Positions 7,680 to 60,861 of a stretch of 64,000 nt of DNA are shown piece after piece; position 1 is the stretch's first letter, and every line of letters begins with the position of its first letter. This stretch comes from Stella humosa (GTDB lineage: Bacteria > Pseudomonadota > Alphaproteobacteria > ATCC43930 > Allostellaceae). The position numbers and the translations under genes were made by a program. The stretch is from positions 2,554,001 to 2,618,000 of the forward strand of contig NZ_AP019700.1 of the NCBI RefSeq assembly GCF_006738645.1, in the 5' to 3' direction. Below the pieces are notes generated by a model. That model worked only from the letters and a program-made list of their open reading frames with translations. It was not told the DNA's origin and ran no database searches.

Positions 7680-7727
7680 GGCGGTTCTCCCCATAACGCG
7701 ACTGCAACGCATTAGCATCTTTGGACC

Positions 7728-9812
7728 CTAGAATTTGGCTTTCGCGGTGACCAGGAAAGTTCGGCCGCGCCCGGTCGCGAGGCCCGCGATCCCGGGCGAT
7801 GTGCTGAGGGCGGGCGAGTAGGACTTGTCGAACAGGTTCGTCACGTTGGCACCCAGTTCCAGATTGTCGGTCATCTGGAAGTTGGTGAAGAGGTCGACGG
7901 TGACATAGCCCTTCTCGTGCGGGTCGGTGCCGGGCGCCACGTTGACCTCGCCGACATAGCTCTTGCTGACGGCATAGAGCCGACTGCCGAGCGTCAGGCG
8001 CTGGTCGAAGAGGCGGGCACCCACCGTAGCCGAGAAGATGTGGTCGGGCAGGTAGCTCTGGGCGCCGAAGCCGTTCACCTGCGAGGGCAGTTCGGAGTGG
8101 GTGTAGGTGTAGCCCAGGCTGGCAAAGGCGAAGCCGGCGTCGTAGGCCGCCTGGACCTCGACGCCCTGCACCACCGACGTGCCGGGATTGTTGACGAAGT
8201 GGACGCCGCCGGCCATCTCGGCGGTGATGTAGTTGTCGATGTTGTTGTAGAAATAGTTGCCCTTGAAGCGCAGCCTGTCGCCCTTGGCGAGGACGTCGTT
8301 CTTGCGGATGTTGGCACCGATCTCCCACCCCTTGGAGATTTCCGGCTGCAGGAAGGGATTGGGGAAGAACGACTGGCGCGGGCCGCCGGCCTGCGAGGGA
8401 TGGCTGCCGCCAACCAGGCTCTCGGAGATCGTCGGCGCCCGGAACGCCTCGGCGTAGGTCACGAAGGGCTGGAGCCAGGGCAGGGGGTTCAGTGCCAGCG
8501 TCACCTTGGGATTGAGGCGCCCGGCCGAGCGATCGAGGTCGTAGGGCCCCGCCGGCATGCCGAGCGGGTTTTCGGCCACGACCGAGCCCTGGCCGTCGAG
8601 CGTGTACCGGTCGTAGCGCAAGCCCACGATCAGGTCCGCCATGCCATAGGTGAAGGTGGTGGCGGAAAAGACGCTGCCGATCGCGTTCTTGCCGCTGGCG
8701 TTCACGCCGCGGTCGGGGACGGCCGTGCTGTTGCGGACGTCGACATCGTCGTGGAAGTACTCGACCCCATAGTTGGCCGACACGGCCAGGGGGCCGAGCC
8801 GGAAACGCGACGTGTTCGAGATGTCGAAGCCGAGCCCGGTATCGTCGATCCGTCGGCCCACGGCGCTGAGCGCGGTAAGCGCGCCGTCATAGTTCATGCG
8901 GACGCGGTTGTAGTGGGCGTTGACCCGGAGATCGATCAGGTCGCTGTCCGGCGTATAGGTGTAGTTGGCGGTGAACTGCCGCGAGTCGATGTCCTGGAAG
9001 TAGGAGTTCGCGTAGAACTCGTTGCGATAGATGTTGCCGCCGAACTTCAGGCTGTGGTCGGCACTGGGCGTGAATTCCAGCTTCAGGATGCCGGACGCGA
9101 TGTCCTGCACGGTGTAGGGGACGGTCTCGCCGTCGCCGTTCTTGTAGTTGCGCGGGTCGCGCTTGCTGATGCCGCCGGCGATCGCCACCGTGTCGTTGAA
9201 GCGATAGGCACCGGCAACCGACTCCGACCAGCCGGCACCGTTGGTACCATAGGTGGCCGTCGCCTGGGCGCCCCAGTTTCGCCCCTTCGAGATGAGGTCC
9301 GAAACACCGATCGTGCGGAAGTTGACGGTGCCCGCCAGTGCGCCGGCGCCACCCGCGCCGGAGACCGCGCCGCGGTTGATGTCGACGCCGACGATGAAGG
9401 CCGGGTCGACATAGGCGAAGCCCTGGGCCTCGTGGCCGGTGAAGCGGAAATTCTGGCGCACCCCGTCGATCATCATGTTGACGCGGCCGGACCCCTCCAG
9501 CCCGCGGATGTTCACTGCGATGCCGGGGTTCTGGACGCTGTCGCGGGTGAAGACGCCGGGGGAGGCGCGCAGCACGTCGTCGAGGCTCTGCCCGCCGAAC
9601 TGGTCGATCTCGTCGCGGCCGATGCGGCTCGTGGCGGCCGGCCTGGCGTAGGGGTCCTCGACCGTCTCGGCCTCGACCACGACCGGGGAAAGATAGGTGG
9701 CGGCCGTCTGGCGATCGGCTGCCGGCACCGGCGCCTGCGCGTGCCCGGTCGTGGTCAGGAGCAGCAGCGCCGTCCCCGATAGCAGGGCCGTGCGGTAGCG
9801 TTGCGTGGTCAT
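7728..9812 (-). CDS. TonB-dependent receptor of the haem/haemoglobin type
   Basis: This is a 694-residue outer-membrane receptor: signal peptide (1-~25, ending GHA-QAP), plug domain (about 55-165, with RDEIDQFGGQSLDDVLRASPG and NIRGLEGSGRVNMMIDG), then a 22-strand barrel ending in ...VTAKAKF with the terminal aromatic residue. A FRAP motif, a following His (SHP) and NPFL are in the order typical of haem/haemoglobin receptors. It would import haem, or another iron or metal chelate, using TonB energy. No haem ABC importer or hmuS gene is in the window. A Fur-like sequence (9873-9887) lies 61-75 bp upstream of the start, suggesting iron repression. Confidence 0.9.
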   Translation of the reverse strand: MTTQRYRTALLSGTALLLLTTTGHAQAPVPAADRQTAATYLSPVVVEAETVEDPYARPAATSRIGRDEIDQFGGQSLDDVLRASPGVFTRDSVQNPGIAVNIRGLEGSGRVNMMIDGVRQNFRFTGHEAQGFAYVDPAFIVGVDINRGAVSGAGGAGALAGTVNFRTIGVSDLISKGRNWGAQATATYGTNGAGWSESVAGAYRFNDTVAIAGGISKRDPRNYKNGDGETVPYTVQDIASGILKLEFTPSADHSLKFGGNIYRNEFYANSYFQDIDSRQFTANYTYTPDSDLIDLRVNAHYNRVRMNYDGALTALSAVGRRIDDTGLGFDISNTSRFRLGPLAVSANYGVEYFHDDVDVRNSTAVPDRGVNASGKNAIGSVFSATTFTYGMADLIVGLRYDRYTLDGQGSVVAENPLGMPAGPYDLDRSAGRLNPKVTLALNPLPWLQPFVTYAEAFRAPTISESLVGGSHPSQAGGPRQSFFPNPFLQPEISKGWEIGANIRKNDVLAKGDRLRFKGNYFYNNIDNYITAEMAGGVHFVNNPGTSVVQGVEVQAAYDAGFAFASLGYTYTHSELPSQVNGFGAQSYLPDHIFSATVGARLFDQRLTLGSRLYAVSKSYVGEVNVAPGTDPHEKGYVTVDLFTNFQMTDNLELGANVTNLFDKSYSPALSTSPGIAGLATGRGRTFLVTAKAKF

Positions 9813-47927: not shown

Positions 47928-48611
47928 TTGACCCAGCGCATCCTGGTCATCAACCCCAACAGCACGGCCGCCGTCACCAGCGGCATCGACCAGGCGATGG
48001 CGCCGCTGCGGCTCGAAGGCGGCCCGCGCATCGACTGCGCCACCCTGGCCGAAGGGCCGCCCGGCATCCAGAGCCAGCGCGACGTCGACCATGTCGTGCC
48101 GCCGCTCTGCCGCCTGATCGAGCGCGAGCACAACGCGACCGACGCCTTCGTCATCGCCTGCTTCTCCGACCCCGGCCTGCACTCGGCGCGCGAGACCACC
48201 GACCGGCCGGTGTTCGGCATCATGGAGGCGGGGCTGACGACGGCCCTCAACCTCGGCAACTCCATCGGCATCATCGCCATCCTGCCGACCTCGGTCGCGC
48301 GCCACCTGCGCTTCGTGCGCGCAATGGGCCTGTCGCAGCGGGTGGCGGGCGACCGTGCCGTCGGCCTCAACGTCGTCGAATTGTCGGACGAGGCCCGCAC
48401 CTACGGCCGGCTGGTCGAGACCGGGCGGGCGCTGCGCGACCAGGACGGCGCCGACGTCATCGTCATGGGTTGCGCCGGGATGGCCCGCTATCGCGAGCGG
48501 ATGGAGGACGCGCTGGGCGTGGCCGTCATCGACCCCAGCCAGGCCGCCGCCTCCATGGCGATCGGCGCCATTCGCCTCGGCTATCGCACGGGCCGCCGCA
48601 GCGCGGCCTGA
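47928..48611 (+). CDS. Aspartate/glutamate/hydantoin racemase family protein
   Basis: This 227-residue protein starts LVINPNSTAAVTSGID, with the two catalytic cysteines Cys78 (IACFSDPGL) and Cys182 (VMGCAGM) that act as a two-base racemase pair, close to those of hydantoin racemases. It would interconvert D- and L-hydantoins so that the D-specific hydantoinase can use both. The start is TTG with GGAGG 7 nt before it. It is followed by an SDR gene (36 bp gap) and separated from the hydantoinase by the YcjXF block. Confidence 0.88.
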   Translation: MTQRILVINPNSTAAVTSGIDQAMAPLRLEGGPRIDCATLAEGPPGIQSQRDVDHVVPPLCRLIEREHNATDAFVIACFSDPGLHSARETTDRPVFGIMEAGLTTALNLGNSIGIIAILPTSVARHLRFVRAMGLSQRVAGDRAVGLNVVELSDEARTYGRLVETGRALRDQDGADVIVMGCAGMARYRERMEDALGVAVIDPSQAAASMAIGAIRLGYRTGRRSAA

Positions 48612-48647
48612 CCCAACAAGAATCCGCCAAAGGGAGAACCCGCCGCC

Positions 48648-49400
48648 ATGAACCAGATCGACCTGAAGGGCCGCCGCGCGGTCATCACCGGCGGTGCCCG
48701 CGGCATCGGCCTTGCCATAGCCGAGCGGCTGGTCGCCAGCGGTGCCGCCGTCGCCCTGTGGGACCGGGACCTGGCCGCCGCCAACGCGGCCGCAACCGCG
48801 CTCGGCGCGACCGGCAAGGCGATGGCGGTTGCCGTCGACCAGACCGAGGATGGCGAGGTGGCCGACGCCACGGCGCGCACCGTGGCCGGCCTGGGCGGCA
48901 TCGACATCCTGGTCAACAATGCCGGCATCACCGGCGGCAACCAGAAGGTGTGGGAATACTCGGTCGAGGAATGGCGCCAGGTGATCGACGTCAACCTCGT
49001 CGGGCCGTTCCTGTGCTGCCGCAACGTGGTGCCGGAGATGCTGAACGCGGGCTATGGCCGCATCGTCAACATCGCCTCGGTGGCTGGCCTGGACGGCAAC
49101 CCCAACGCCTCGCACTACAGTGCGTCGAAGGCGGGCGTGATCTCGCTCACCAAGTCGCTCGGCAAGGAGCTGGCGGCGACCGGCATCCGCGTCAACGCCG
49201 TGGCCCCGGCCGCGGTCGAGACCGACATCTTCAAGCAGATGAGCCAGCAGCATATCGACTTCATGCTGTCGAAGATCCCGATGGCCCGCTTCGGCCGGGT
49301 GGAGGAGATCGCGGCCATGGTGGCGTGGCTCGCCTCGGAGGACTGCTCCTTTTCCACGGGTGCGGTGTTCGACATCACCGGCGGCCGCGCGACCTACTAG
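48648..49400 (+). CDS. Short-chain dehydrogenase/reductase (SDR)
   Basis: This is a 250-residue classical SDR with the cofactor motif TGGARGIGLA (13-22), NNAG, and the catalytic S-YSASK tetrad part (ASHYSASKAG). The C-terminal GAVFDITGGRATY resembles 3-oxoacyl-ACP reductases and 2-deoxygluconate/threonate dehydrogenases. The Asp-type cofactor residue (WDRDLA) after strand 2 suggests NAD+ preference. It follows the racemase gene by 36 bp, so a role in amino acid derivative catabolism is possible but undefined. Confidence 0.88.
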   Translation: MNQIDLKGRRAVITGGARGIGLAIAERLVASGAAVALWDRDLAAANAAATALGATGKAMAVAVDQTEDGEVADATARTVAGLGGIDILVNNAGITGGNQKVWEYSVEEWRQVIDVNLVGPFLCCRNVVPEMLNAGYGRIVNIASVAGLDGNPNASHYSASKAGVISLTKSLGKELAATGIRVNAVAPAAVETDIFKQMSQQHIDFMLSKIPMARFGRVEEIAAMVAWLASEDCSFSTGAVFDITGGRATY

Positions 49401-49788: not shown

Positions 49789-50037
49789 ATGCTGCAACTG
49801 CGCCCGGGCTGCGAATGCTGCGACCGCGACCTGCCGCCCGACAGCCGGGAGGCCCGCATCTGTTCGTTCGAGTGCACCTTCTGCCGCGACTGCACGGAGA
49901 CGGTGCTCGGCGGGAAGTGCCCGAACTGCGGCGGCGAGCTGGTGGCCCGCCCGGTGCGGCCGGCCGACAAGCTGGCGAAGTTCCCGCCATCGGCCGAGCG
50001 TATCCATCGGCCCGAGCGGTGCGGCAGGACGGCATGA
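49789..50037 (+). CDS. DUF1272 zinc-ribbon protein
   Basis: This is an 82-residue protein rich in cysteines: CECCDRD (9-15), CSFECTFCRDC (26-36) and CPNCGGEL (44-51). This is the DUF1272 pattern of small zinc-binding proteins with unknown role, probably binding two zinc ions. GC content returns to the normal high value. It starts one base after the AT-rich gene and ends 13 bp before the HAD gene, so it may be cotranscribed with HAD, GNAT and SDR. Confidence 0.9.
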   Translation: MLQLRPGCECCDRDLPPDSREARICSFECTFCRDCTETVLGGKCPNCGGELVARPVRPADKLAKFPPSAERIHRPERCGRTA

Positions 50038-50050
50038 CCGGCGCCGTGCG

Positions 50051-50827
50051 ATGATTTCCGAAGCGGAGCTGGAGCGCACGAGCGGGCTGTTCGGCCGGGT
50101 GCGGGCGGTACTGATCGACGTCGACGGGGTGCTGATCGCGGGCGGCGTGGCGCTGCCGGGTGCGGCCGAGTTCCTGGCCGCACTGGGGCCGCGGGCCTTC
50201 ATCGTGTCGAACAACTCGATCGACACGCCGGCCTCGATGACGGCGAAGTTCGCCCGCCAGGGCCTGATCGTCACGCCCGAGCACCTGTCGCTGGCGGGCG
50301 CGGTCATGATCGACACCATCGCGGTCGAGGCGCCGGCCGACCCGGTGTTTCTCGTGGCGGCACCCTCGCTGACCGCCTATGCGGCCGAGCGCGGCCTGCG
50401 CCTGACCGACGTGGAGGAGGAGGCGCGGATCCTGGCGCTCGCCCGCGACACCGAGCTGACCTATGCGCGGCTCTATCGCGCCGCCCGCGTGCTGCATGGC
50501 GGGGCTCGCTGGATCGTCGCCAACCCCGACCGCATCCACCCCGATACCGATGGCGGCCCGGTGCCGGAGACGGGCGCGCTGATGGCGGCCCTCAGCACCT
50601 GCGTGCCCGGCGCCCAGCCGCGCATCATCGGCAAGCCTGAGCCGTCCCTTTTCCTGGCGGCCATGGCGCTGGCCGGGGTCGGCCCGGGCGAGGCGGTGAT
50701 GATCGGCGACAACCCGGACACGGACGGCGCCGGTGCCGCCGCCCTCGGCATTCCCACCATCATGGTCGGCCCGCGCGGCACGGTGGGCGGCGTCATCGAC
50801 CTGTTGCCCGGCATCGCCCACCGGTGA
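50051..50827 (+). CDS. HAD-IIA family phosphatase
   Basis: This 258-residue protein belongs to the NagD/AraL type of HAD hydrolases. Motif I is LIDVDGVLIAGG, the loop is FIVSNNS, Lys in GKPEPSLF, and the last motif is MIGDNPDTDGAGAAALG. Such enzymes dephosphorylate sugar or polyol phosphates, with low substrate specificity. It is coupled by GTGA overlap to the following GNAT gene. Its proximity to an Ugp-like importer, a phosphodiesterase and a FGGY kinase suggests sugar-phosphate handling (inference). Confidence 0.88.
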   Translation: MISEAELERTSGLFGRVRAVLIDVDGVLIAGGVALPGAAEFLAALGPRAFIVSNNSIDTPASMTAKFARQGLIVTPEHLSLAGAVMIDTIAVEAPADPVFLVAAPSLTAYAAERGLRLTDVEEEARILALARDTELTYARLYRAARVLHGGARWIVANPDRIHPDTDGGPVPETGALMAALSTCVPGAQPRIIGKPEPSLFLAAMALAGVGPGEAVMIGDNPDTDGAGAAALGIPTIMVGPRGTVGGVIDLLPGIAHR

Positions 50828-51300
50828 GCGCCGGTGTCGCAAGCCGGGCGGTCATCGCGCCGGAATCGCCCTATCAGGCGTCGGTCGGAGAGTTGCTGCG
50901 GCGGTCGGATGCCTATTCGCGCTCGCTCTATCCGCCGGCCGCCAGCTACCTGATCGACGCCGACCAGTTGGCGCGGCCCAACGTCCGCTTCCTGGTGGCG
51001 CGGATCGACGGCAATGCGGTCGGCTGCGGCGCGGTCGTGCTGGGCGCCGACGGGGAAGGGGAACTGAAGCGCATCTTCGTGGCCGACGAGGCGCGCGGCC
51101 AGCGGCTGGGTGCGCGCCTTGTCGAGGCGCTAGAGGCGCTCGCGCGGGCGGAGGACGTCCGTTTGCTGCGGCTGGAGACGGGTCCCTACAGCCTGCCGGC
51201 GCTGGCGCTCTATCGCCGGCTCGGCTACCGCGAATGCGCGGCGTTCGGCGACTACCCGGACGACCCGCTGTCGGTCTTCATGGAAAAGAACCTGGTCTAG
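50824..51300 (+). CDS. GNAT family N-acetyltransferase
   Basis: This is a 158-residue protein of the GNAT fold with the acetyl-CoA loop DEARGQRLGARLVEAL (residues ~93-108) and the C-terminal ALYRRLGYRECAAFGDYPDDPLSVFMEK. The GTG start overlaps the HAD stop. The family acetylates amines of small molecules or proteins; the substrate is not deducible. An SDR gene follows after 8 bp. Confidence 0.88.
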   Translation: MSAGVASRAVIAPESPYQASVGELLRRSDAYSRSLYPPAASYLIDADQLARPNVRFLVARIDGNAVGCGAVVLGADGEGELKRIFVADEARGQRLGARLVEALEALARAEDVRLLRLETGPYSLPALALYRRLGYRECAAFGDYPDDPLSVFMEKNLV

Positions 51301-51308
51301 GAGGAAGC

Positions 51309-52046
51309 ATGTATCGTGAACGGTTCCAGCTCGACGGCAAGGTGGCCGTCGTCACCGGCGGCGGCCGCGGCATCGGCCGGGCGATCGTCGAGGCGTTGCA
51401 GGAAGCCGGCGCCAAGGTCATCGTCGGCGACCTGGAGCCGCAGCCGGCGCCAGGTGTCGAGACCTTCAGCCTGGACGTGCGCGACCGCGCGCAAGTGGAG
51501 GCCGCCGCCGCCGACATCCTGGCCCGCCATGGCGCCGTCGACATCATGATCGCCAATGCCGGCATCGCCCGCGGCTCCAACGCCGAGGAGACCGCACCCG
51601 ACGAGTGGCGTGCAGTAATGGACGTCAACCTCGACGGCGTGTGGTGGTCGTGCCAGGCGTTCGGCCGGGCCATGGTCGCCCGCGGCAGCGGCAGCATCGT
51701 GGCGCTCGGCTCCATGTCGGGCCTGATCGTCAACAAGCCGCAGCCCCAGGCCGCCTACAACGCGTCCAAGGCCGGCGTCCATGCGCTGGTGCGCTCGCTG
51801 GCGGCCGAATGGGCCAGCCGTGGCGTCCGCGTCAACGCCGTGGCGCCCGGCTATATCGGCACCGAGATGACCAAGGGCGGGCTGGCCAACGAGGACTGGA
51901 AGCGCACCTGGCTGGAGATGACGCCGATGGGCCGCGTTGGCGAGCCGAAAGAGATCGCCTCGGCCGTGCTGTTCCTGGCGAGCGACGCCGCCAGCTTCGT
52001 CACCGGCTCCATCCTGTCCGTCGACGGTGGCTACACCGCTTGGTGA
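51309..52046 (+). CDS. SDR family polyol/sugar dehydrogenase
   Basis: This 245-residue SDR has TGGGRGIGRA, NAG in MIANAGIARG, and the YNASK catalytic motif (AAYNASKAG). The sequence resembles D-arabinitol/sorbitol dehydrogenases and other polyol oxidoreductases. It ends tail-to-tail with the FGGY kinase gene (16 bp overlap, 52031-52046). A polyol dehydrogenase next to a ribulokinase-type kinase fits conversion of a pentitol to a pentulose and then to its phosphate; this is inference from context. Confidence 0.87.
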   Translation: MYRERFQLDGKVAVVTGGGRGIGRAIVEALQEAGAKVIVGDLEPQPAPGVETFSLDVRDRAQVEAAAADILARHGAVDIMIANAGIARGSNAEETAPDEWRAVMDVNLDGVWWSCQAFGRAMVARGSGSIVALGSMSGLIVNKPQPQAAYNASKAGVHALVRSLAAEWASRGVRVNAVAPGYIGTEMTKGGLANEDWKRTWLEMTPMGRVGEPKEIASAVLFLASDAASFVTGSILSVDGGYTAW

Positions 52047-53620
52047 AGCATCTCTCTTAGCCGCGCCTCCTGCTGCTGGAGATCCAGGAACAGGGCATAG
52101 CGGCAGTCGAAGAAGGACCGTAGCGCCCGGTCGGGCTCCACGACCCGGCCGCTGCGGACCATCGCCAGCCCGGCATCGGCCAAGGACGGATGCAGCCCCG
52201 CCGCCGCCGCGGCCACCGTCGCCGTGCCCAGCAGCACCCCGTCCTCCTGTTCCGGCAGTACCACGCGGCGCCCGGTGGCATCGGCATAGAGGCGCACCAG
52301 GACCGGGTTGGCCGCGTGGCCACCGGTCAGGTGCAGCGTGTCGATAGCGTAGCCGGCCCGGTCGAGGGCGTCGACGATCTGGCGCGTGCCGAGCGCGATG
52401 GCGAGTGCCGTCGCATAGTAGAGCCGGCACAGACCGTCGAACGAGGCGTCGAGCGACAGGCCGAAGATAGCCCCCCGCGCCTCGGGGTCGGCCAGCGGCG
52501 AGCGGTTGCCGTGGAAATCGGGCAGCACGGTCAGCGGCCCAAGCATCGCCGGTCCGTCGACGGCCAGCAGTTCGTCGATGCGCCGGCTGACCCGGTCGTG
52601 GCGATCGGGCCCCAGCCCGCGCCCTTCGGCATGCAGGTCCAGGACGTGGTCGAGCAATGCACCAGAGGCCGACTGGCCGCCCTCGTTCAGCCACAGACCG
52701 GGGACCATGGCGTCGAAATAGGGGCCCCACACGCCCGGCACGGGCCGCGCCTGCGGGGACACCGCCATGTGGCAGGTGGAGGTACCGGCGATCATCGCCA
52801 GTCGCCGGTCCAGCTCTGCGGCCGGCACGCCGCCCAGCACGCCGAGCCCGCCGGCATGGGCGTCGATCAGCCCGACACCGACGACGCAGGCGGTCGTCAG
52901 CCCCAGCGCCCCGGCCGCCGCTTCGGACAACGGCCCGGCGCCGGTGCCGATCGGCAGCGCGCGGTCGGGCAGGGCTGCCTTCTCCGGCAGGTCGGGCAAC
53001 CCGACCAGTTCGAGGAAATCGGCCTGCCAGCCGGGCGCTTCATGGGCCAGGTAGGTCCATTTGCAGGTGACGGTGCAGGCCGAGACTGCGACCCGGCCGG
53101 TCGCCCGCCAGAGCAGGAAGTCCGCCAGGTCCAGCGCCTTTGCCATCCGCGCCCAGGCGGCCGGGGCATGGCGCTTCAGCCACAGCAGCTTGGGCAGTTC
53201 CATCTCGGGCGACATGACGCCGCCGACATGGTCCAGCACGCGGTGCCTGGTCAGGGTCATCTCGGCCGCTTCCGCGGTCGCCCGGTGATCCGCCCACATG
53301 ATGACGTTCCAGCGATCCTCGCCGCCGGGCGACACGCCGACCGGCTGCCCGTCTCCGTCCAGGACGACCAGCGAGCAGGTGGCGTCGAAGGCCAGGCCCG
53401 CCACGCGGGCCGGATCGACCCCGGCCTCGGCCAGGGCGGCGCGCGCCGCCTGGCAGACCGACTGCCAGATCTCGGCCGAGGAATGCTCGGCCCAGTCGGT
53501 CGCCGGCCGGTGGACGGCGAAGGACCGGCTGGCGCGGGCCAGCAGGTGCCCTGCGCGATCGAAGATGCCGGCGCGGGCCGCGGTCGACCCGACGTCGACC
53601 GCCATCACGAGATCGCCCAT
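52031..53620 (-). CDS. FGGY-family carbohydrate kinase (ribulokinase type)
   Basis: This 529-residue kinase starts VMAVDVGSTAARAGIFDRAG (phosphate 1 motif). It has AFDATCSLVVLDGDG, IMWADHRATAEA, the LTGGHAANPVLVRLYAD adenosine motif, and the length of the D-ribulokinase (AraB/YpCarbK-like) branch rather than glycerol kinase. It phosphorylates a ketopentose such as ribulose, or a polyol, at the 5-OH. It is the last gene of the minus-strand operon with a phosphodiesterase and an Ugp-like importer. Confidence 0.88.
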   Translation of the reverse strand: MGDLVMAVDVGSTAARAGIFDRAGHLLARASRSFAVHRPATDWAEHSSAEIWQSVCQAARAALAEAGVDPARVAGLAFDATCSLVVLDGDGQPVGVSPGGEDRWNVIMWADHRATAEAAEMTLTRHRVLDHVGGVMSPEMELPKLLWLKRHAPAAWARMAKALDLADFLLWRATGRVAVSACTVTCKWTYLAHEAPGWQADFLELVGLPDLPEKAALPDRALPIGTGAGPLSEAAAGALGLTTACVVGVGLIDAHAGGLGVLGGVPAAELDRRLAMIAGTSTCHMAVSPQARPVPGVWGPYFDAMVPGLWLNEGGQSASGALLDHVLDLHAEGRGLGPDRHDRVSRRIDELLAVDGPAMLGPLTVLPDFHGNRSPLADPEARGAIFGLSLDASFDGLCRLYYATALAIALGTRQIVDALDRAGYAIDTLHLTGGHAANPVLVRLYADATGRRVVLPEQEDGVLLGTATVAAAAAGLHPSLADAGLAMVRSGRVVEPDRALRSFFDCRYALFLDLQQQEARLREMLHQAV

Positions 53621-53623
53621 GGC

Positions 53624-54406
53624 CTACAGCAGGAAGCGTGGCGAATTGTCGAGGAAGTCGTGGAAATGCACGACCGTCTGGTCCTGGTCGGCCAGCACCA
53701 CGGCATAGGCCGGCGGCTCGTGGCTGCCCGGCACCTTGCCCGCGATCACCAGATCCAGCTCCACCTGGTGGCTCGTCGCGCGCATCGTGCTGAAGGGGAT
53801 GCCGCGCCAGCTCCCGGCGATCGGCCGGTGCAGGTGGCCGAAGAAGAGGTGGCGGATGTTGGTCCGGCCGGACAGGACGCGGATATAGCCCTCGGCCTCG
53901 CGCAGCGAGATCTCGTCCATCCGCTTCAGCCCCACCGGGAAATGCGGGTGATGCTGGAAGAGATAGACCGGGCGGTCGCCGGCGGCATCCAGCGTGCGCT
54001 CCAGCCAGCCCAGCCGGCGCTCGCAGCAGATGCCCCAGGACACGCCGGGCTCGTTGGTGTCGACGCAGACGAAGAGGCCGGCCGCGGTCTCCAGCGTGAA
54101 TTGGACGAAGCCCTCTGCGTCACGAGGCGCGTCCGGGAACTGCGCCTGGAAGTTGCCGCGATGGTCGTGGTTGCCGAGCAGCAGGTGATAGGGCAGGCGG
54201 AGCTGGCTCAGGCACTCGTGCAGGACCGTGTAGGCGGCCGGCTCGCCGCGATGGCAGAGGTCGCCGGTGAAGATGGCGAACTCGGCGTCGGCATGATTGC
54301 GGTTGATGTCGGCAATGCACAGGCGCAGCCGCTCGGCCGGGTCGAGCCCGTAGAGCAGTTCGCCCGAGGGCACGATGTGGGTGTCGGTGACGTGGATGAA
54401 TTTCAT
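53624..54406 (-). CDS. Metallophosphoesterase, GpdQ/CpdA-like
   Basis: This is a 260-residue cyclic-nucleotide/glycerophosphodiester phosphodiesterase-like enzyme. Binuclear metal motifs are complete: DTH (8-10), GDLCHR, GNHDHRG, HHPHF and GHLHR. ATG 54406 (MKFIHVTDTH) is taken as start; ATG 54418 is an alternative. CpdA-type enzymes act on cAMP and GpdQ on glycerophosphodiesters. Placement after the transporter genes and before the kinase favours a nutrient phosphodiester substrate over cAMP. It has 3 bp to the kinase gene. Confidence 0.88.
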   Translation of the reverse strand: MKFIHVTDTHIVPSGELLYGLDPAERLRLCIADINRNHADAEFAIFTGDLCHRGEPAAYTVLHECLSQLRLPYHLLLGNHDHRGNFQAQFPDAPRDAEGFVQFTLETAAGLFVCVDTNEPGVSWGICCERRLGWLERTLDAAGDRPVYLFQHHPHFPVGLKRMDEISLREAEGYIRVLSGRTNIRHLFFGHLHRPIAGSWRGIPFSTMRATSHQVELDLVIAGKVPGSHEPPAYAVVLADQDQTVVHFHDFLDNSPRFLL

Positions 54407-54446
54407 CGGGCGGTCCACGAGGGTTCAGGGCCGGGACAAAGAAATG

Positions 54447-54470
54447 CGGAGAGGTGTCGCCACCTCTCCG
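54447..54470 (-). terminator. Intercistronic terminator after the sugar-binding protein gene
   Basis: CGGAGAGGTG (54447-54456) and CACCTCTCCG (54461-54470) form a perfect 10-bp stem with a 4-nt loop. On the minus strand it is followed by CATTTCTTTGTC, a moderately T-rich tail. It lies 50 bp after the binding-protein stop, before the phosphodiesterase, and would lower downstream expression. Confidence 0.65.
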
Positions 54471-54520
54471 CCAGTTGACCCCTGCTTGGCAAGGGCCCAG
54501 GGAGAAACGTCAGCCGATGC

Positions 54521-55777
54521 TCATTTCGGCACGAGCGCCTGCACGTCCTTCGACATGGAAGTGAGTGCCGTGCGCGGCGGGGTCGAGCCGTCGACCACGC
54601 TTTGCAGGTGGTCTTTGATGACGGCGATGATCTTCAGCCCGTTGTCGCCGGGGAAGGCGTACCAGGGCGTCATGTACTTCTGCTGCTTCAGGGAAGTCAG
54701 GTGGTTGGGCTTGGTCGCGTAGAAGGGCTTCAGGCGGTTCGGGTCGTCGGCCGGCAGGGAGTTGGGCGGCATGTAGCCGCTGCCCTTCACCATGATGGTG
54801 GCGCCGTCGGCACCGGAGATGAACTTCATGAAGGCCCAGGCGCCCTTCTGCTTCTCGGGCGTCGCGGCGAACATGAGGGCGGCCGCCCCGCCGGTCGGCA
54901 GCTTGCCGTCGGCGGCCGGCACCGGGAAGACGGCCGTGCGCCACTTGAACTTGCCGCCGACGCCGTCGTCGGCCACCCGCAGCAGCGAGGTCGATTCCGT
55001 CCAGATGCCGACCTTGCCGGCGAAGAAGCTCTGGCGGGCGGCCTCATGCGCCAGGTTGGGCATCTTGGCCTCGGTCACCATGCGGCCCATCAGGTCGATG
55101 GACTGCTGGCCGCCGGGGCCGTCGAAGGCGACCTTCTTCTCGTCGGCCGACATCATGGCGCCGCCATGCGAGAAGACGAGGCTCTGCCACATCCAGTTCC
55201 CGGTGATCGTCCAGGAGTGGTACATGCCGACCGTGTCGCTGCCGAGCGCCTGGATCTTCTTCGACAGGTCGAAGATGCCGTCCCAGGTGTTGGGGAAGTT
55301 CTCCGGGTCGGCGCCGGCCTTCCGCACCAGATCCTCGTTGAAATAGATGATCGGCGTCGAGACGGCGAAGGCCAACCCATACGGCTTCCCGTTGAAGGTG
55401 CCGAGCGCCATCATCGAGTCCGAGTAGCCCTGGCCCTTCCAGTCCTTCTCCTGGGCGATGAAGGGGCCGATGTCGACGGCGATGCCGCGATCGACGAACA
55501 GGCGCTGCAGGTTGATCGCCTGGAACGATACGTCGGGCAGTTGCTTGGTGATCGACTGCCGCAGGGCCGTCTGGGCCGCGTCCTCATATTCCTTGTAGGC
55601 CGGGCGGTAGAAGACCTCGTAATCGGGGTTCGCCTTCTCGAACTCCGCCTTGATGTCCTTGAACACGGGATCGAAGATGAAGCCCAGCGGGTACTGGACT
55701 TCGATCTTCGTCTTTTGGGCGAGAGCCGGTGAAACCAGGGCCAGGGTGGCCGCGGCAATGAGGCATGGCAGTTTCAT
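54521..55777 (-). CDS. Sugar/sugar-phosphate ABC transporter substrate-binding protein (UgpB-like)
   Basis: This is a 418-residue protein with a signal peptide (1-20, ending ALA-QKT) and a type 1 sugar-binding fold (IEVQYPLGFIFDPVFKDIKAEFEKANPDYEV). It belongs to the UgpB/MalE family of extracellular sugar-binding proteins. It lies 24 bp downstream of the UgpE-like permease gene and is the last importer component gene in the operon. The ligand is not known; the following phosphodiesterase and kinase suggest a phosphodiester or polyol conjugate. Confidence 0.92.
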   Translation of the reverse strand: MKLPCLIAAATLALVSPALAQKTKIEVQYPLGFIFDPVFKDIKAEFEKANPDYEVFYRPAYKEYEDAAQTALRQSITKQLPDVSFQAINLQRLFVDRGIAVDIGPFIAQEKDWKGQGYSDSMMALGTFNGKPYGLAFAVSTPIIYFNEDLVRKAGADPENFPNTWDGIFDLSKKIQALGSDTVGMYHSWTITGNWMWQSLVFSHGGAMMSADEKKVAFDGPGGQQSIDLMGRMVTEAKMPNLAHEAARQSFFAGKVGIWTESTSLLRVADDGVGGKFKWRTAVFPVPAADGKLPTGGAAALMFAATPEKQKGAWAFMKFISGADGATIMVKGSGYMPPNSLPADDPNRLKPFYATKPNHLTSLKQQKYMTPWYAFPGDNGLKIIAVIKDHLQSVVDGSTPPRTALTSMSKDVQALVPK

Positions 55778-55801
55778 GGCGTCCTCCTCCTTGTTGCAGG
55801 A

Positions 55802-56641
55802 TCAGGTCTTCATACCTGTGAATGTTATCCCTTCGATGAACCTGCGCTGGGCAAAGAGGAATGCCGCGACCAATGGCAGGATCACGATGGTGGCAGCCGC
55901 CATCAGGGGGCCGTACTCGGTGCCCTGGTCGTTCAGGCGGAAGAAGGCGACGCCGAGCGGCGGGGTATAGAGTTCCTCGCTGCCGACCACGATCAGCGGC
56001 CAGAAATAATCGTTCCAGTGGGCCACGACCGAGAAGATGCCGAAGGCGATGAGGGCCGGCACGGCGGTCGGCAGCATGATGCGCCAGACGATGCCGAATT
56101 CCCCCAGCCCGTCGATGCGCGCGGCGTCGATCAGGTCGTTGGGCACGGTCATGAAGAACTGCCGCATCAGGAAGATGCCGAAGACCGATACGGCAAACGG
56201 CAGCACCAGGGCCGAGTAGCTGTCGAGCAGGCCCATCTTGTGGAAGAGGATGTAGATCGGGATCGCCGTCGCGTGGTGCGGGATCAGCAGGCACAGCAGG
56301 ACGACCGCGAACAGCACGCCGCGGCCGCGGAAGCGCAGCTTGGCCAGGGCATAGGCGCAGGGCAGGTTCACCAGCACCTGCAATACGAAGATTGCCGCCG
56401 TGACGATGACGCCGTTGATGAGGAAGCGCATCATCGGCACCCGCGTCATCGCCATGCCGTAGTTCTCGACCACGGCCCAGCGGGTCGGCAGGAAATGCAG
56501 CTCCGCCACCAGGATCTCGGCCTGCGGCTTGAACGAGGTCAGCACCATCCAGGCGAATGGCGTGATCATCAGCAAGGCGCCGGTCATCAGCACGGCGTGG
56601 CGCAGGATCGCCCCCACGGGGCCGGGCGGGCGGGACCTCAT
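55802..56641 (-). CDS. Carbohydrate ABC transporter permease (UgpE-like)
   Basis: This is a 279-residue permease with six hydrophobic helices and the MalG-like EAA loop VPNDLIDAARIDGLGEFGIVWRIMLPTAVPALIAF. ATG 56641 overlaps the preceding permease stop (ATGA); the longer frame upstream is a shadow of that gene. It forms the channel together with the UgpA-like protein. Confidence 0.92.
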   Translation of the reverse strand: MRSRPPGPVGAILRHAVLMTGALLMITPFAWMVLTSFKPQAEILVAELHFLPTRWAVVENYGMAMTRVPMMRFLINGVIVTAAIFVLQVLVNLPCAYALAKLRFRGRGVLFAVVLLCLLIPHHATAIPIYILFHKMGLLDSYSALVLPFAVSVFGIFLMRQFFMTVPNDLIDAARIDGLGEFGIVWRIMLPTAVPALIAFGIFSVVAHWNDYFWPLIVVGSEELYTPPLGVAFFRLNDQGTEYGPLMAAATIVILPLVAAFLFAQRRFIEGITFTGMKT

Positions 56642-57552
56642 GCGTAGTGGACCTTGCGATTGATGGCCCAGGTCTTCAGCAGCGACAGGGCCAGCACGAA
56701 CAGCAGGAACACCACCGTGACGGCGGCGGCGTAGCCGGTGCGGAAGAACGAGAAGCCCTCCGAATACATGGTGTAGAGCAGCACCTCGGTCGCGCGATTG
56801 GGGCCGCCCTTGGTCATCACCTGCACGGTGTCGAAGACCTGGAACGAGCGGATGGCGGTGATGACGACGACGAAGAGCGTCACCGGCCCCAGCATCGGCC
56901 AGGTGACGGTGCGGAAGCGGTCGATGCCGGTCCGGGCACCATCGACGGCGGCTGCCTCGTACAGCTCGCCCGGGATGGCCGTCAGGCCGGCCATGAACAG
57001 CACCATGTTGAAGCCGACGCTCTGCCAGATGCCGATGCCGCACAGCGTGAAGAGGGCGGTGCGGCGATCCTGCAGCCAGTTGTAGCCCTCGATCCCGAAC
57101 TCCCGCAGCGTCAGGTTGATCAGGCCAAGCGTCGGATGCAGCATGAATTCCCAGACGATGGCCATGGCGATCAGGGTCGCCATCACCGGCAGGAAATAGA
57201 CCGCGCGATAGAAGGCGCGCAGCGACGTCCCGGCCTCGATCAGCAGCGCCGCGCCAAGCCCGAGCCCGACCGAGGTCGGCACGACGATGGCGACATAGAG
57301 CAGCGTGTTCTGGAGCGAGCGCTGGAACACCCGGTCGGCGAACATCTCCGAATAGTTGCCGAGGCCGACATAGCTGAGCGATGCAGCGCCGAGCTGGTAG
57401 TTGGTCAGCGACAGCAGCACGACCACGACGAGCGGCCCGATCAGGAACATGACCATCAGCGCCACGGCCGGCCCGGCCAGCGACAGGGCGGCCAGCGCCT
57501 CGCCCAGGCTGCGCCGGCGGCGGGCGGCCGAGAGGGCAGCGGCCTCAGCCAT
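56638..57552 (-). CDS. Carbohydrate ABC transporter permease (UgpA-like)
   Basis: This is a 304-residue permease with six core helices and the MalF-type EAA loop IPGELYEAAAVDGARTGIDRFRTVTWPMLGPVTLF. A short Arg-rich N-terminus (RRRRSLGEALAA) precedes helix 1. The ATG at 57552 overlaps the ATPase gene end by 8 bases. Upstream is the ATPase; downstream is its permease partner. Confidence 0.92.
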   Translation of the reverse strand: MAEAAALSAARRRRSLGEALAALSLAGPAVALMVMFLIGPLVVVVLLSLTNYQLGAASLSYVGLGNYSEMFADRVFQRSLQNTLLYVAIVVPTSVGLGLGAALLIEAGTSLRAFYRAVYFLPVMATLIAMAIVWEFMLHPTLGLINLTLREFGIEGYNWLQDRRTALFTLCGIGIWQSVGFNMVLFMAGLTAIPGELYEAAAVDGARTGIDRFRTVTWPMLGPVTLFVVVITAIRSFQVFDTVQVMTKGGPNRATEVLLYTMYSEGFSFFRTGYAAAVTVVFLLFVLALSLLKTWAINRKVHYA

Positions 57553-58750
57553 GACGGCGCATCCCGGCTGCGGCCAGGGGCGCGCGCAGGCGTTTGCCCG
57601 CCTGGTCGAAAATCAGCGTCTGCACTTCGCCGATGCGCATGGTCACGGGCTCGCCCACCGGGAAGCTGGCGATCTCGGCCGGGTCGTGGCGGATGACCAC
57701 GGGGGCGTCGGCGCCAGCCAGCGCCACATGCAGGAACAGATCGGAGCCCAGGTTCTCGCGGTAGGTGAGGGTGCCGGCGAGACCCGGCGTACCGGATGCC
57801 CGCGTTACGGTCGCGGCCGCCGGCCGGAAGCCGACCTGGACCCCCGTGCCAGGGGAGACATGGCCGGCGAACGGCACCTCGACCCCCAGCACGTCGACCG
57901 AGCCGCGGCCGGTCGCCGTGCCGGGCAATATGTTGATCCGCGGGCTGCCGACGAAGCGGGCGACGCGGATGTCCTCGGGGTCTTCGTAGATCACCGACGG
58001 TGGCGCCACCTGCAGGGGCCGCCCGTCCATCATCACCACGACCTGGTCGGACATGGTCATGGCCTCGGCTTGGTCGTGCGTCACATAGATGAAGGTCGTG
58101 CGCAGGCTGCGATGGAGCTGGGCGATCTCCGCCCGCATGTGCACGCGCAGCTCGGCATCGAGGTTCGACAGCGGCTCGTCCATCAGAAAGACGCGCGGTT
58201 CGCGCACCATGGCGCGGCCGACGGCCACGCGTTGCTTCTGGCCACCTGACAACTGGCCCGGCTTGCGCGCCAATAGCGGCTCGATCTGCAAGGTCTCGGC
58301 GACGCGGCGGACGGCCTGGGCGATCTCGCGCTCGGTCTGGCCGACGCCCGGCAGCATGCGGCCGACGATCGGCAGGCGGCGGGCGAAATCGAGCCTGCGC
58401 ATGCGCAAGGGCAGGGCGATGTTGTCGAACACCGTCAGGTGCGGGTAGAGCGCGTAGGACTGGAAGACCATGGCGATGTCGCGCTGGTCGGGGCGCAGTC
58501 CGTCGACCGGGCGTCCGCCGATCGCGACGGAGCCGCCATCCTGCTGCTCCAGGCCCGCCACGATCCGCATCAGGGTCGACTTGCCGCAGCCGGACGGCCC
58601 CAGCACCGTCAGGAACGATCCGTCCGGGATGTCGAGGTCGACGCCGCGCAGCACCGGGGTGGCGCCGAAGCTCTTGGTCAGCCCGCGAATGGCGACGCTG
58701 CCGCGGCCGTCCTCCGTCGCGCGAGAAGCCGCTGTCGACCCGGCCGTCAT
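57545..58750 (-). CDS. Carbohydrate ABC transporter ATPase (UgpC/MalK-like)
   Basis: This 401-residue ATPase has Walker A GPSGCGKST, Q-loop FQSYALYPHLTV, signature LSGGQKQRVAVGRAM, Walker B VFLMDEPLSNLD and H-loop THDQAEAMTMSD. The C-terminal ~130 residues are the TOBE-type regulatory domain found in MalK/UgpC. It energises the importer. It is the first gene of the minus-strand operon, next to a palindromic operator (58825-58842) shared with the divergent LacI gene. Confidence 0.94.
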   Translation of the reverse strand: MTAGSTAASRATEDGRGSVAIRGLTKSFGATPVLRGVDLDIPDGSFLTVLGPSGCGKSTLMRIVAGLEQQDGGSVAIGGRPVDGLRPDQRDIAMVFQSYALYPHLTVFDNIALPLRMRRLDFARRLPIVGRMLPGVGQTEREIAQAVRRVAETLQIEPLLARKPGQLSGGQKQRVAVGRAMVREPRVFLMDEPLSNLDAELRVHMRAEIAQLHRSLRTTFIYVTHDQAEAMTMSDQVVVMMDGRPLQVAPPSVIYEDPEDIRVARFVGSPRINILPGTATGRGSVDVLGVEVPFAGHVSPGTGVQVGFRPAAATVTRASGTPGLAGTLTYRENLGSDLFLHVALAGADAPVVIRHDPAEIASFPVGEPVTMRIGEVQTLIFDQAGKRLRAPLAAAGMRRHG

Positions 58751-58824: not shown

Positions 58825-58842
58825 AACGATTAGCTAATCGTT
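58825..58842. promoter_or_regulatory. Perfect 18-bp palindrome, putative LacI operator
   Basis: AACGATTAGCTAATCGTT (58825-58842) is a perfect palindrome in the divergent region between the ABC importer operon and the LacI-type gene. It lies 75-92 bp upstream of the importer ATPase start and 12 bp before the putative regulator start codon. LacI-family dimers bind such palindromes. A -35-like TTGACG (58800-58805) sits before it on the plus strand. Confidence 0.7.
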
Positions 58843-58854: not shown

Positions 58855-59904
58855 ATCGTTTCAAATCCCGCAGAGGATGGCAAGAGGCTGCGCAAGGCCA
58901 CGATTCGCGACGTCGCCCGCGTGGCCGGCGTGTCTACGGCCACCGTCTCGGCCGCCCTGAACGGCAGTTCGCCTGTCAGCCTGGCATTGCAGGAGCGGGT
59001 GCGCGCAGCGGTCGACACGGTCGGCTATCGCCCGGACGGCATCGCGCGCAGCCTGCGCCGGGGCGAGACGCGGATGCTGGGCCTGCTGCTGGCGGACATC
59101 ACCAACCCGTTCACGACCGCCGTCGTCCATGCGATGGAGGCGGCCGCCCATGCCCGCGGCTATTCCCTGATGCTGTGCAACAGCGACGAGGATACGGGCC
59201 GCGAGCGGACCAACCTCGACCTCCTGCGCACCCATCGCGCGGACGGGGTGATGCTGATGCCGGTCGGCTTCGGCCGCGACTATGGCCAGGCGGTGCGGCG
59301 CGCGCTCGACCGGCCGGCGGTGCTGGTCGACCGCACGATCCCGGGCCTGCCGCTGGACGCCGTGACGGTTGATGGCGCCACCGGCACCCGGCTGGCGGTC
59401 GCGCACATGATCGCGCATGGCCATCACCGCATCGCCGTCCTGGCCGGTCCGGCCGGCGTCTCAGCCAGCGATGAACGCCTGGCCGGTTATCGCCAGGCCC
59501 TGGCGGATGCGGGCCTGGCGGCCGATCCGGAACTGGTGCGCGACGGCGGCTTCCGGCAGGGACCGGCCTATGCCGCCACGCTCGACCTGCTGCGCGCCGC
59601 ACGGCCGCCGACCGCGCTCTTTGCCTGCAACAACCTGATGGCGATCGGCATGATGCGGGCGGTGGCCGACATGGGCCTGGACTGCCCGGGCGACCTGTCG
59701 GTCGCCTGCTTCGACGATTTCGACTGGGCAGAGGCCTTCCGCCCCCGACTGACCACCGTCGCCCAGCCAACCGACGCGATCGGCACCCAGGCGGTCGAAC
59801 TCTTGCTGGACCGCCTGGGCGGCGACCCACCGACGACGGCACGCCGCCTCATCCTCCAGCCGCGGTTGGTGGTACGCGACTCCTGCGCCGCTCCCCGTCG
59901 CTGA
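58855..59904 (+). CDS. LacI-family transcriptional regulator, non-canonical start
   Basis: This is a protein of about 349 residues. The N-terminal helix-turn-helix reads TIRDVARVAGVSTATVSAALNG; the hinge and a periplasmic-binding-protein-like core follow (MLGLLLADITNPFTTAVVHAMEAAAHARGYSLMLCNSDED). A GTG at 58921 would delete the first HTH helix, so translation must begin upstream, where only ATC 58855 has a good ribosome-binding site. A single missing A near 58882 would alternatively join the ATG at 58877 to the frame (MAKRLRKATIRDV). It is divergent from the ABC importer genes and likely controls them. Confidence 0.85.
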   Translation: MVSNPAEDGKRLRKATIRDVARVAGVSTATVSAALNGSSPVSLALQERVRAAVDTVGYRPDGIARSLRRGETRMLGLLLADITNPFTTAVVHAMEAAAHARGYSLMLCNSDEDTGRERTNLDLLRTHRADGVMLMPVGFGRDYGQAVRRALDRPAVLVDRTIPGLPLDAVTVDGATGTRLAVAHMIAHGHHRIAVLAGPAGVSASDERLAGYRQALADAGLAADPELVRDGGFRQGPAYAATLDLLRAARPPTALFACNNLMAIGMMRAVADMGLDCPGDLSVACFDDFDWAEAFRPRLTTVAQPTDAIGTQAVELLLDRLGGDPPTTARRLILQPRLVVRDSCAAPRR

Positions 59905-59996
59905 CCCCCCAGCGCCCCCGTGTGCGCGGCGCCGGCTTGCCGATCCGGCATTGTGCTACATATCATTCAGTACTGCACACAAATGGGAGCCGCGTC

Positions 59997-60311
59997 ATGG
60001 CCGCCAGGATACTGCCGAAGACGCCGACCGACGCCGGACGGGCGCAGACGACCCCTCGGCGTGCGAGCGGGGCGGAACGCGCCATGGCCGAGGCGCGCCA
60101 GGCCGGCTTGCTGGAGGGAGACAGCACCGAGCATGTCAGCTTTCGTGCACCCAAAGCCCTGATCGAAGCCGCCAAGCGCCAGAGCGGGGTAACCAAGCCG
60201 ACCGAGCTCGGACTGCTGGGGCTGGCCATGCTCGCCCAACCCGATCCGGCTGCCAGCTTCCTCAAGAAGACTCGCGGCAATCTCGGCAAAGACCATCAGC
60301 TTGACTATTGA
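59997..60311 (+). CDS. Antitoxin-like protein of a PIN toxin-antitoxin pair
   Basis: This is a 104-residue small protein with a basic N-terminus and a helical part that may be a ribbon-helix-helix-like DNA-binding module (STEHVSFRAPKALIEAAKRQSGVTKPTELGLLGLAMLAQ, about 42-80). ATG 59997 is the start; the longer frame from 59922 lacks a ribosome-binding site. Its TGA stop lies 11 bases into the PIN gene, the usual coupling of type II antitoxin with toxin. The family name is not certain. Confidence 0.72.
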   Translation: MAARILPKTPTDAGRAQTTPRRASGAERAMAEARQAGLLEGDSTEHVSFRAPKALIEAAKRQSGVTKPTELGLLGLAMLAQPDPAASFLKKTRGNLGKDHQLDY

Positions 60312-60861
60312 CGTCCGGGCAAGCCTGAGGCGTATCAGGCCCGAGAGGCAGCCGGCACAGCGCGCGCCCCGTCCGCTGGACGAACTGGTGGCGGTCACGG
60401 ATCTGCCGGACGAGGGGCGGGCGGCGCTCGTACTGGACACCAATGTCTACATCCGGTCGGCGGCTGGAACGCTTCCTGCCGCAGTCGCGGCACTGCTTGA
60501 TCGCGGCCTGCTGTTCCATTGCTCGGTATGCGTGTCCGAACTGACACTCGGCATTGCCAACGCGGATCCGTCGCGCGGCAACTGGCGAGCGATGCGAGAC
60601 CACTATGTCGCGCTGATCGCGACTTTTTCTCCGACGAGAATCCTTACCCCTGATCCGCAGGTCTGGACCGAAGCGGGCTTGGTCGCGGGAACGCTGGCGA
60701 GGACCCAGCGCTTCCAACGCGAGCAGCGCAGGGAATGCCTGAACGACGCGCTCATCTTTCTGACCGCAGCCAAGGCGGGGCTCCCTGTCCTCACCGCCGA
60801 CCGGGTCGATTTCGACCTGATCCAGCAGGTCGCCCCGCATGGCCGGTTCATTCATTTCTAG
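60301..60861 (+). CDS. PIN-domain toxin (type II toxin-antitoxin)
   Basis: This is a 186-residue protein with a PIN nuclease core: Asp46 (VLDTNVY), Glu80 (VSELTLG), Asp149 (LNDALIFLTA) and Asp167/Asp170 (LTADRVDFD), the acidic residues that bind metal. Such toxins cleave RNA. The length is greater than classical VapC (~135) because of an N-terminal extension of about 40 residues. The TTG start overlaps the antitoxin gene. A 7-bp inverted repeat follows the stop (60867-60890). Confidence 0.82.
   Translation: MTIDVRASLRRIRPERQPAQRAPRPLDELVAVTDLPDEGRAALVLDTNVYIRSAAGTLPAAVAALLDRGLLFHCSVCVSELTLGIANADPSRGNWRAMRDHYVALIATFSPTRILTPDPQVWTEAGLVAGTLARTQRFQREQRRECLNDALIFLTAAKAGLPVLTADRVDFDLIQQVAPHGRFIHF

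Follow-up and report, generated by a model that had tools for sequence, protein, structure and literature searches.

An importer-phosphodiesterase module in Stella humosa with a probable role in the use of organophosphorus diesters

The 5.83-Mb, single-contig genome of Stella humosa encodes, within positions 2,554,001-2,618,000, a Ugp-like ATP-binding cassette (ABC) importer whose operon also carries genes for a calcineurin-type metallophosphodiesterase and an FGGY-family kinase. A convergent group of genes adds a HAD-IIA phosphatase and a polyol dehydrogenase of the SDR family. A sequence-only reading of this stretch of 64,000 nucleotides (hereafter, the window) had joined these genes into a chain: import of a pentitol-type phosphodiester or a polyol, cleavage, oxidation to a ketopentose, and phosphorylation to an intermediate of the pentose phosphate pathway. 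Import and cleavage of an organophosphorus diester, meaning either a phosphodiester or a chemically similar phosphonate monoester, are well supported by the analysis described here.

The gene cluster

The features are as follows, in window coordinates:

50051..50827, plus strand: HAD-IIA family phosphatase (TIGR01460, 98.0 bits; motifs DVDG, GKP, and GDNPDTD)
50824..51300, plus strand: GNAT acetyltransferase (PF00583; 4-bp overlap with the HAD gene)
51309..52046, plus strand: SDR of the polyol dehydrogenase type (PDB matches 3AWD and 2WDZ; SMSG...YNASK)
52031..53620, minus strand: FGGY pentulose kinase, D-ribulokinase-like (TIGR01315; DATCSLV, LIDAHAGG)
53624..54418, minus strand: calcineurin-type metallophosphodiesterase, GpdQ/SpdA-like (PF00149)
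54521..55777, minus strand: Ugp-like CUT1 solute-binding protein (PF13416)
55802..56617, minus strand: UgpE-like permease (PF00528; start set by codon-usage gene calling)
56638..57552, minus strand: UgpA-like permease (PF00528)
57545..58750, minus strand: UgpC/MalK-like ATPase (NF008653 UgpC)
58825..58842, no strand: perfect 18-bp palindrome AACGATTAGCTAATCGTT, likely a LacI-type operator (single copy in the genome)
58921..59904, plus strand: LacI-family regulator, CytR/RbsR-like (PF00356, PF13377)

All genes named in the sequence-only reading are present and intact, and the overlap that it described between the convergent SDR and kinase genes is exactly 16 bp. Its inventory omitted the GNAT gene, which sits between the HAD and SDR genes and is kept in all three Stella species; the divergent LacI regulator gene and the palindrome lie beyond the end of its range (58750). 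The minus-strand operon is transcribed in the order ATPase, permease, permease, binding protein, phosphodiesterase, and kinase, with gaps of -8, 20, 24, 102, and 3 bp. Because the same gene order is found again in alpha- and betaproteobacteria, the arrangement is far beyond chance. Literature searches found no description of this gene cluster.

The binding protein

Both importer components compared with Ugp family models fall short of the cut-offs: the ATPase scores 364 bits with the UgpC model NF008653 (cut-off, 432), and the binding protein 72.9 bits with the UgpB equivalog model (cut-off, 411). A true ugpBAEC operon is encoded elsewhere in the Stella genome, with no phosphodiesterase gene after it.

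Ligand-contact residues of UgpB were taken from the literature (PMC12718374): phosphate contacts Tyr64, Ser143, Ser266, and Tyr342; and glycerol contacts Glu88, Arg393, and a Trp clamp (188/191). Fifty members of the window family were aligned with E. coli UgpB, with 18 true UgpBs from alphaproteobacteria, and with six further binding proteins. Within the family the phosphate contacts are kept: Tyr64 in 49 of 50 members, Ser143 and Tyr342 in all 50, and Ser266 as Ser in 45 and as Thr in four. Their equivalents in the window protein are Y64, S140, S262, and Y335. The glycerol contacts are lost: no member has Glu88 (Gly or Ala) or Arg393 (Thr or Ile), and Trp191 is gone. The window protein has Ala87 and Ile384 at these positions and a gap at Trp191; it retains Trp188, as does the family, together with Gly303. 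The 18 true UgpBs retain all nine residues, bar one Glu-to-Asp change.

Because the phosphate contacts are kept and Glu88, Arg393, and Trp191 are lost, we infer that a phosphate or phosphonate group is part of the ligand, and that glycerol would be held otherwise than in UgpB. Both a phosphonate monoester and a phosphodiester would fit the binding-site result, because they share the P(O)(O-)(OR) face. The retained contacts support the phosphodiester-type import proposed earlier. The alternative raised with it, uptake of a free polyol, is not supported: the residues at the four phosphate positions are Tyr, Ser, Ser, and Tyr in the window family but Trp, Glu, Ala, and Trp in two binding proteins of the SmoE type, encoded in polyol operons L157 and L158. 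Identity with UgpB itself is rejected, given the equivalog score and the lost glycerol contacts.

An AlphaFold model of the binding protein (mean predicted local distance difference test score [pLDDT] 92.5) was compared with solved structures by VIA-align. The best match is M. tuberculosis UgpB with glycerophosphocholine (Z 44.5; root-mean-square deviation [rmsd] 2.3; 384 residues), and the top non-Ugp match has Z 41.7. Many sugar-binding proteins lie within 3-5 Z units of UgpB, and structural alignment alone has no power to tell the ligand.

The phosphodiesterase

The class III metal-binding motif (D-GD-GNHD-H-GHxH) is near-invariant across 126 relatives of the phosphodiesterase. Its AlphaFold model (pLDDT 95.3) aligns best with GpdQ (Z 35.5; rmsd 1.8; 259 of 264 residues), with Rv0805 next (Z 32.6). 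These closest solved structures bear out the original description of the enzyme as GpdQ-like. The top NCBIfam match is SpdA, at 247 bits against a cut-off of 400; assignment as SpdA or CpdA is rejected, since the scores lie under both cut-offs. The Stella vacuolata phosphodiesterase is 88% identical to that of the window.

Twenty-two relatives of the binding protein were gathered by a search that made no use of the phosphodiesterase. A phosphodiesterase of this family is encoded in the same operon for 15, is absent for six, and could not be judged for one, whose stretch of DNA is too short. Since the phosphodiesterase served to fetch most loci, only these counts and the class-sample kinase counts (below) are free of bias toward it. 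In genome G001, a phosphodiesterase 55% identical to that of the window is encoded directly behind true ugpBAEC, at the ugpQ place. Cleavage of the imported diester is the simplest role for the enzyme, because it shares the importer operon and fills the ugpQ place in G001. Both positions support the predicted cytoplasmic cleavage of a phosphodiester after import.

In L198 (3679-9848), true ugpBAEC is followed by a GpdQ/SpdA-like phosphodiesterase gene in the ugpQ slot and by a gene for a PsrA-type iron alcohol dehydrogenase. Roseovarius and relatives (L053, L055, and L057; ~7170-8855) have two tandem phosphodiesterase genes behind the importer.

Phosphatase, dehydrogenase, and kinase

The HAD protein contains all HAD motifs and scores slightly under the TIGR01460 cut-off (98.0 against 100.15 bits). 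HAD-IIA and phosphodiesterase genes overlap by 4 bp in Bosea, Xanthobacter, Pinisolibacter, and one Phyllobacteriaceae metagenome-assembled genome (MAG); in Betaproteobacteria, a HAD-IA gene overlaps the phosphodiesterase gene, likewise by 4 bp. The phosphodiesterase-coupled HAD-IIA protein of Xanthobacter has a single match in the whole Stella genome, the window HAD protein (41%). As the sole match, the latter appears to be the Stella counterpart of the coupled phosphatase, though encoded on the opposite strand. The overlapping genes of other lineages thus support the connection drawn earlier between the HAD protein and the phosphodiesterase pathway.

The SDR carries the classical catalytic Ser-Tyr-Lys (SMSG..YNASK). 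Its best PDB matches, 3AWD (3e-70) and 2WDZ (5e-70), are both polyol dehydrogenases, as the sequence-only reading had expected; the next family follows at 3e-48. The kinase scores 539.5 bits with the FGGY pentulose kinase model TIGR01315, above the cut-off of 408.7, and matches 3GG4/3L0Q with E 4e-143; its predicted character as a ribulokinase-type enzyme holds. Its motif DATCSLV (DATCSLA in two relatives) includes TCSLV, which we take to be a D-ribulokinase mark. Assignment as the L-ribulokinase AraB is rejected (190 bits against 583).

In the class sample, the SDR gene is clustered with the kinase gene in four of the six genomes that have a close kinase. Two of these four are L157 and L158, the SmoEFGK-type polyol ABC operons, in which a HAD gene is also present. 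The pair is found again in G122, L026, and L027. Because it recurs, including in such polyol operons, the pair looks like a movable cassette for conversion of polyol to ketose to ketose phosphate. The recurrent clustering lends support to the joint function proposed for the two enzymes, and, moderately, to the membership of this polyol branch in the pathway.

The LacI regulator

The LacI-type gene is divergent from the importer operon. PF00356 is matched from model position 9 only, and the listed start (58921) trims the first helix-turn-helix residues. Between 58855 and 58921 of the window, none of the start codons ATG, GTG, and TTG occurs in frame at a point that would take in the complete LacI helix-turn-helix. 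Upstream of the listed start, GGAGG followed by an in-frame ATC is conserved in both Stella species. This suggests that the LacI gene has a non-canonical (ATC) start.

The 18-bp palindrome upstream of the importer operon occurs at the same position in the sister species locus, L106. It is probably the LacI operator.

A candidate pathway

These observations are consistent with the following scheme. Under LacI control, the CUT1 ABC importer would bring in an organophosphorus diester that is not simply glycerol-based. The cytoplasmic dinuclear metallophosphodiesterase, positioned like UgpQ in ugp operons, would hydrolyze the imported diester; the HAD-IIA phosphatase could dephosphorylate the phosphomonoester product; the SDR would oxidize the released polyol to a ketose; and the D-ribulokinase-like kinase would phosphorylate the ketose, yielding a product that could feed the pentose phosphate pathway. 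Gene content, gene order, active-site motifs, conserved linkage, and the state of the binding-site residues are read directly from sequence; every reaction, and the ligand, is predicted from them. Taken whole, from LacI-controlled import through cleavage, dephosphorylation, oxidation, and phosphorylation, the chain has the balance of probability slightly in its favor. The earlier scheme thus stands well for diester import and cleavage and moderately for the polyol branch. Its last elements are more speculative: the released polyol may be a pentitol, perhaps ribitol, and the kinase may make a pentose phosphate pathway intermediate.

Several observations weigh against this scheme. The sister Stella species G182 has the importer, phosphodiesterase, SDR, and HAD genes, and no kinase was found there at E 1e-140. 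Stella vacuolata has the phosphodiesterase, kinase, SDR, and HAD genes, with no ABC genes adjoining the phosphodiesterase gene. Cluster G122 has the kinase, the SDR, and two importers, and no phosphodiesterase. In energetic terms, it is odd for a single chain to contain both a phosphatase and a kinase. Four other Stella binding proteins, to which no ligand is assigned, match most of the phosphate positions (some with Tyr/Ser/Tyr), so the phosphate-position signature may extend beyond phosphate binders. Finally, a genome search allowing up to three mismatches found the palindrome only upstream of the importer, with no copy at the plus-strand operon. Because the palindrome occurs once in the genome, the plus-strand genes would not be under the same operator; shared LacI regulation of both strands is not supported.

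Alternative ligands

In a special case of the scheme, the ligand would be a phosphonate, such as 2-aminoethylphosphonate, esterified with a polyol (or a sugar). The phosphodiesterase would then act as a phosphonate monoester hydrolase; the phosphonate would pass on to PhnW-PhnY-PhnA, and the SDR and kinase would take the polyol. That phosphonate catabolism is repeatedly linked to this importer family had escaped the sequence-only reading. Outside Stella, the closest cluster to have the full ABC-phosphodiesterase-kinase-SDR set belongs to a Burkholderiales MAG (L026; per-gene identity, 64-78%); on its flanks are genes for PhnW (513.7 bits; cut-off, 400.8), PhnA (534 bits; cut-off, 407.55), and a PhnY truncated at the end of the contig. 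Genes for breaking the C-P bond surround the relatives L026, L164, and L165. In G337, an alphaproteobacterium of 1.4 Mb, genes for PhnA, PhnY, and a PsrA-type iron alcohol dehydrogenase surround that of a family binding protein; phosphonopyruvate hydrolase is present in G056; neither has a phosphodiesterase gene nearby. The ABC-phosphodiesterase-HAD genes of betaproteobacteria come after phnD, phnE, and phnC in one tight run, and PhnCDEE genes adjoin the cluster in L035 and L042. Counted over every fetched locus of 7 kb or more, phosphonate genes occur in nine of 46 with the binding protein and two of 56 without it (Fisher p 0.02; related loci each entered the count). Stella itself has PhnW-PhnA-PhnY genes at another locus. 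However, a search of the window found no phosphonate gene, most relatives show none nearby, and the linkage could reflect general organophosphorus clustering. A phosphonate ester ligand is possible, and we hold it tentatively. Somewhat more doubtful is its fullest form, in which the cluster would be an import route for intact polyol phosphonate esters: the Ugp-like protein would bind the ester, the GpdQ-like enzyme would be the intracellular hydrolase, and 2-aminoethylphosphonate would proceed to PhnWAY. If true, such a dedicated importer and cytoplasmic hydrolase for polyol phosphonate esters would be new.

Scavenging of glycerophosphodiesters such as glycerophosphocholine, next to unrelated genes for the SDR, HAD, and kinase, would explain why M. 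tuberculosis UgpB with glycerophosphocholine is the best structural match of the binding protein, why the phosphodiesterase model is closest to the glycerophosphodiesterase GpdQ, and why such an enzyme is encoded in the true ugp operon of G001. Yet Glu88, Arg393, and Trp191 are lost throughout the family, Stella already owns true ugpBAEC, and the SDR-kinase pair is tied to this importer family in other lineages; this explanation is unlikely. Another candidate ligand is a 2',3'-cyclic nucleotide or a short RNA fragment, to be cut by an SpdA-like 2',3'-cyclic nucleotide phosphodiesterase. It is suggested by the SpdA match, SpdA being known to hydrolyze 2',3'-cAMP and cGMP (PMC4222275), and by the dinucleotide-binding proteins among the top structural matches of the binding protein (Z ~40). 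The SpdA score under the cut-off argues otherwise, as do the lack of any nucleosidase, nucleotidase, or ribose gene in the cluster and the company that family binding proteins keep, which is phosphonate and polyol genes, not nucleoside genes. We judge it quite improbable. Least probable of all is an importer of free pentitol serving the SDR and kinase, with the phosphodiesterase as an incidental neighbor. The SDR-kinase pair does occur in SmoEFGK-type polyol operons, but their binding proteins differ at the four phosphate positions, and the phosphodiesterase is the most constant partner of the importer (15 of 22). Import of an organophosphorus diester, with cleavage by the phosphodiesterase, is the reading that we retain.

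Neighboring genes and relatives

In many relatives (for example, Reyranella), the importer is accompanied by an RpiR regulator, a LicC/PntC-like nucleotidyltransferase, and a core-MetE-like methyltransferase. Genes of this set lie at:

L043:3594-6343
L026:1729-3497
L153:6189-8053

The nucleotidyltransferase is distantly like CTP:phosphocholine cytidylyltransferase and PntC. The nearest Stella homologs of the nucleotidyltransferase and the core-MetE-like protein are 30% and 33% identical, respectively, and are encoded at other loci; both are rejected as parts of the Stella system.

Genes for a racemase (Asp/Glu/hydantoin) and for a further, FabG-like SDR lie upstream of the HAD operon (window 47928-49400), and all three Stella species have them. 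A DUF1272 gene (49789-50037) lies immediately upstream of the HAD gene. At 59922-60861, a small open reading frame overlaps a PIN-domain gene, likely a toxin-antitoxin type pair.

Comparison with known systems

The E. coli ugpBAEC-ugpQ system, which takes up sn-glycerol 3-phosphate and glycerophosphodiesters, likewise combines a CUT1 ABC importer with a cytoplasmic phosphodiesterase, and its binding protein shares the phosphate-contact residues. In Stella, the glycerol contacts are missing from the binding protein; the phosphodiesterase belongs to the calcineurin type (PF00149), not the GDPD type; and the cluster adds a LacI regulator and polyol genes in a genome that has a separate, true ugp operon. 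The Agrobacterium acc operon for agrocinopine, a sugar phosphodiester, resembles the proposed scheme by description: ABC import is followed by a cytoplasmic phosphodiesterase and a phosphatase.

M. tuberculosis UgpB with glycerophosphocholine (6R1B) is the best structural match of the Stella binding protein, but the two proteins are ~20% identical, and the Stella protein has lost the Arg and the Asp/Glu that contact glycerol. The Stella phosphodiesterase has the fold and the class III metal-binding motif of Enterobacter aerogenes GpdQ and Sinorhizobium meliloti SpdA; it is 24% identical to GpdQ, scores under the SpdA cut-off, and differs in being the operon partner of an importer. The Klebsiella ribitol operon and the Citrobacter Rbl D-ribulose system (PMC12307932) also employ an FGGY kinase of the D-ribulokinase type, and the former has an SDR polyol dehydrogenase as well; these systems import through a polyol permease or a monosaccharide ABC transporter and have no phosphodiesterase. 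The PhnWAY pathway for 2-aminoethylphosphonate is encoded around L026 and elsewhere in Stella, but outside the window. We know of no PhnWAY member that uses a Ugp-like importer with a calcineurin-type phosphodiesterase, nor was one found in the literature searched.

Together, these comparisons set apart an importer-hydrolase module, conserved across alpha- and betaproteobacteria and repeatedly found beside phosphonate genes, in which the Ugp binding site is altered, and supply named, testable proteins. Even with an ordinary phosphodiester as its ligand, the module would be a second, GDPD-independent solution to the task of ugpQ.

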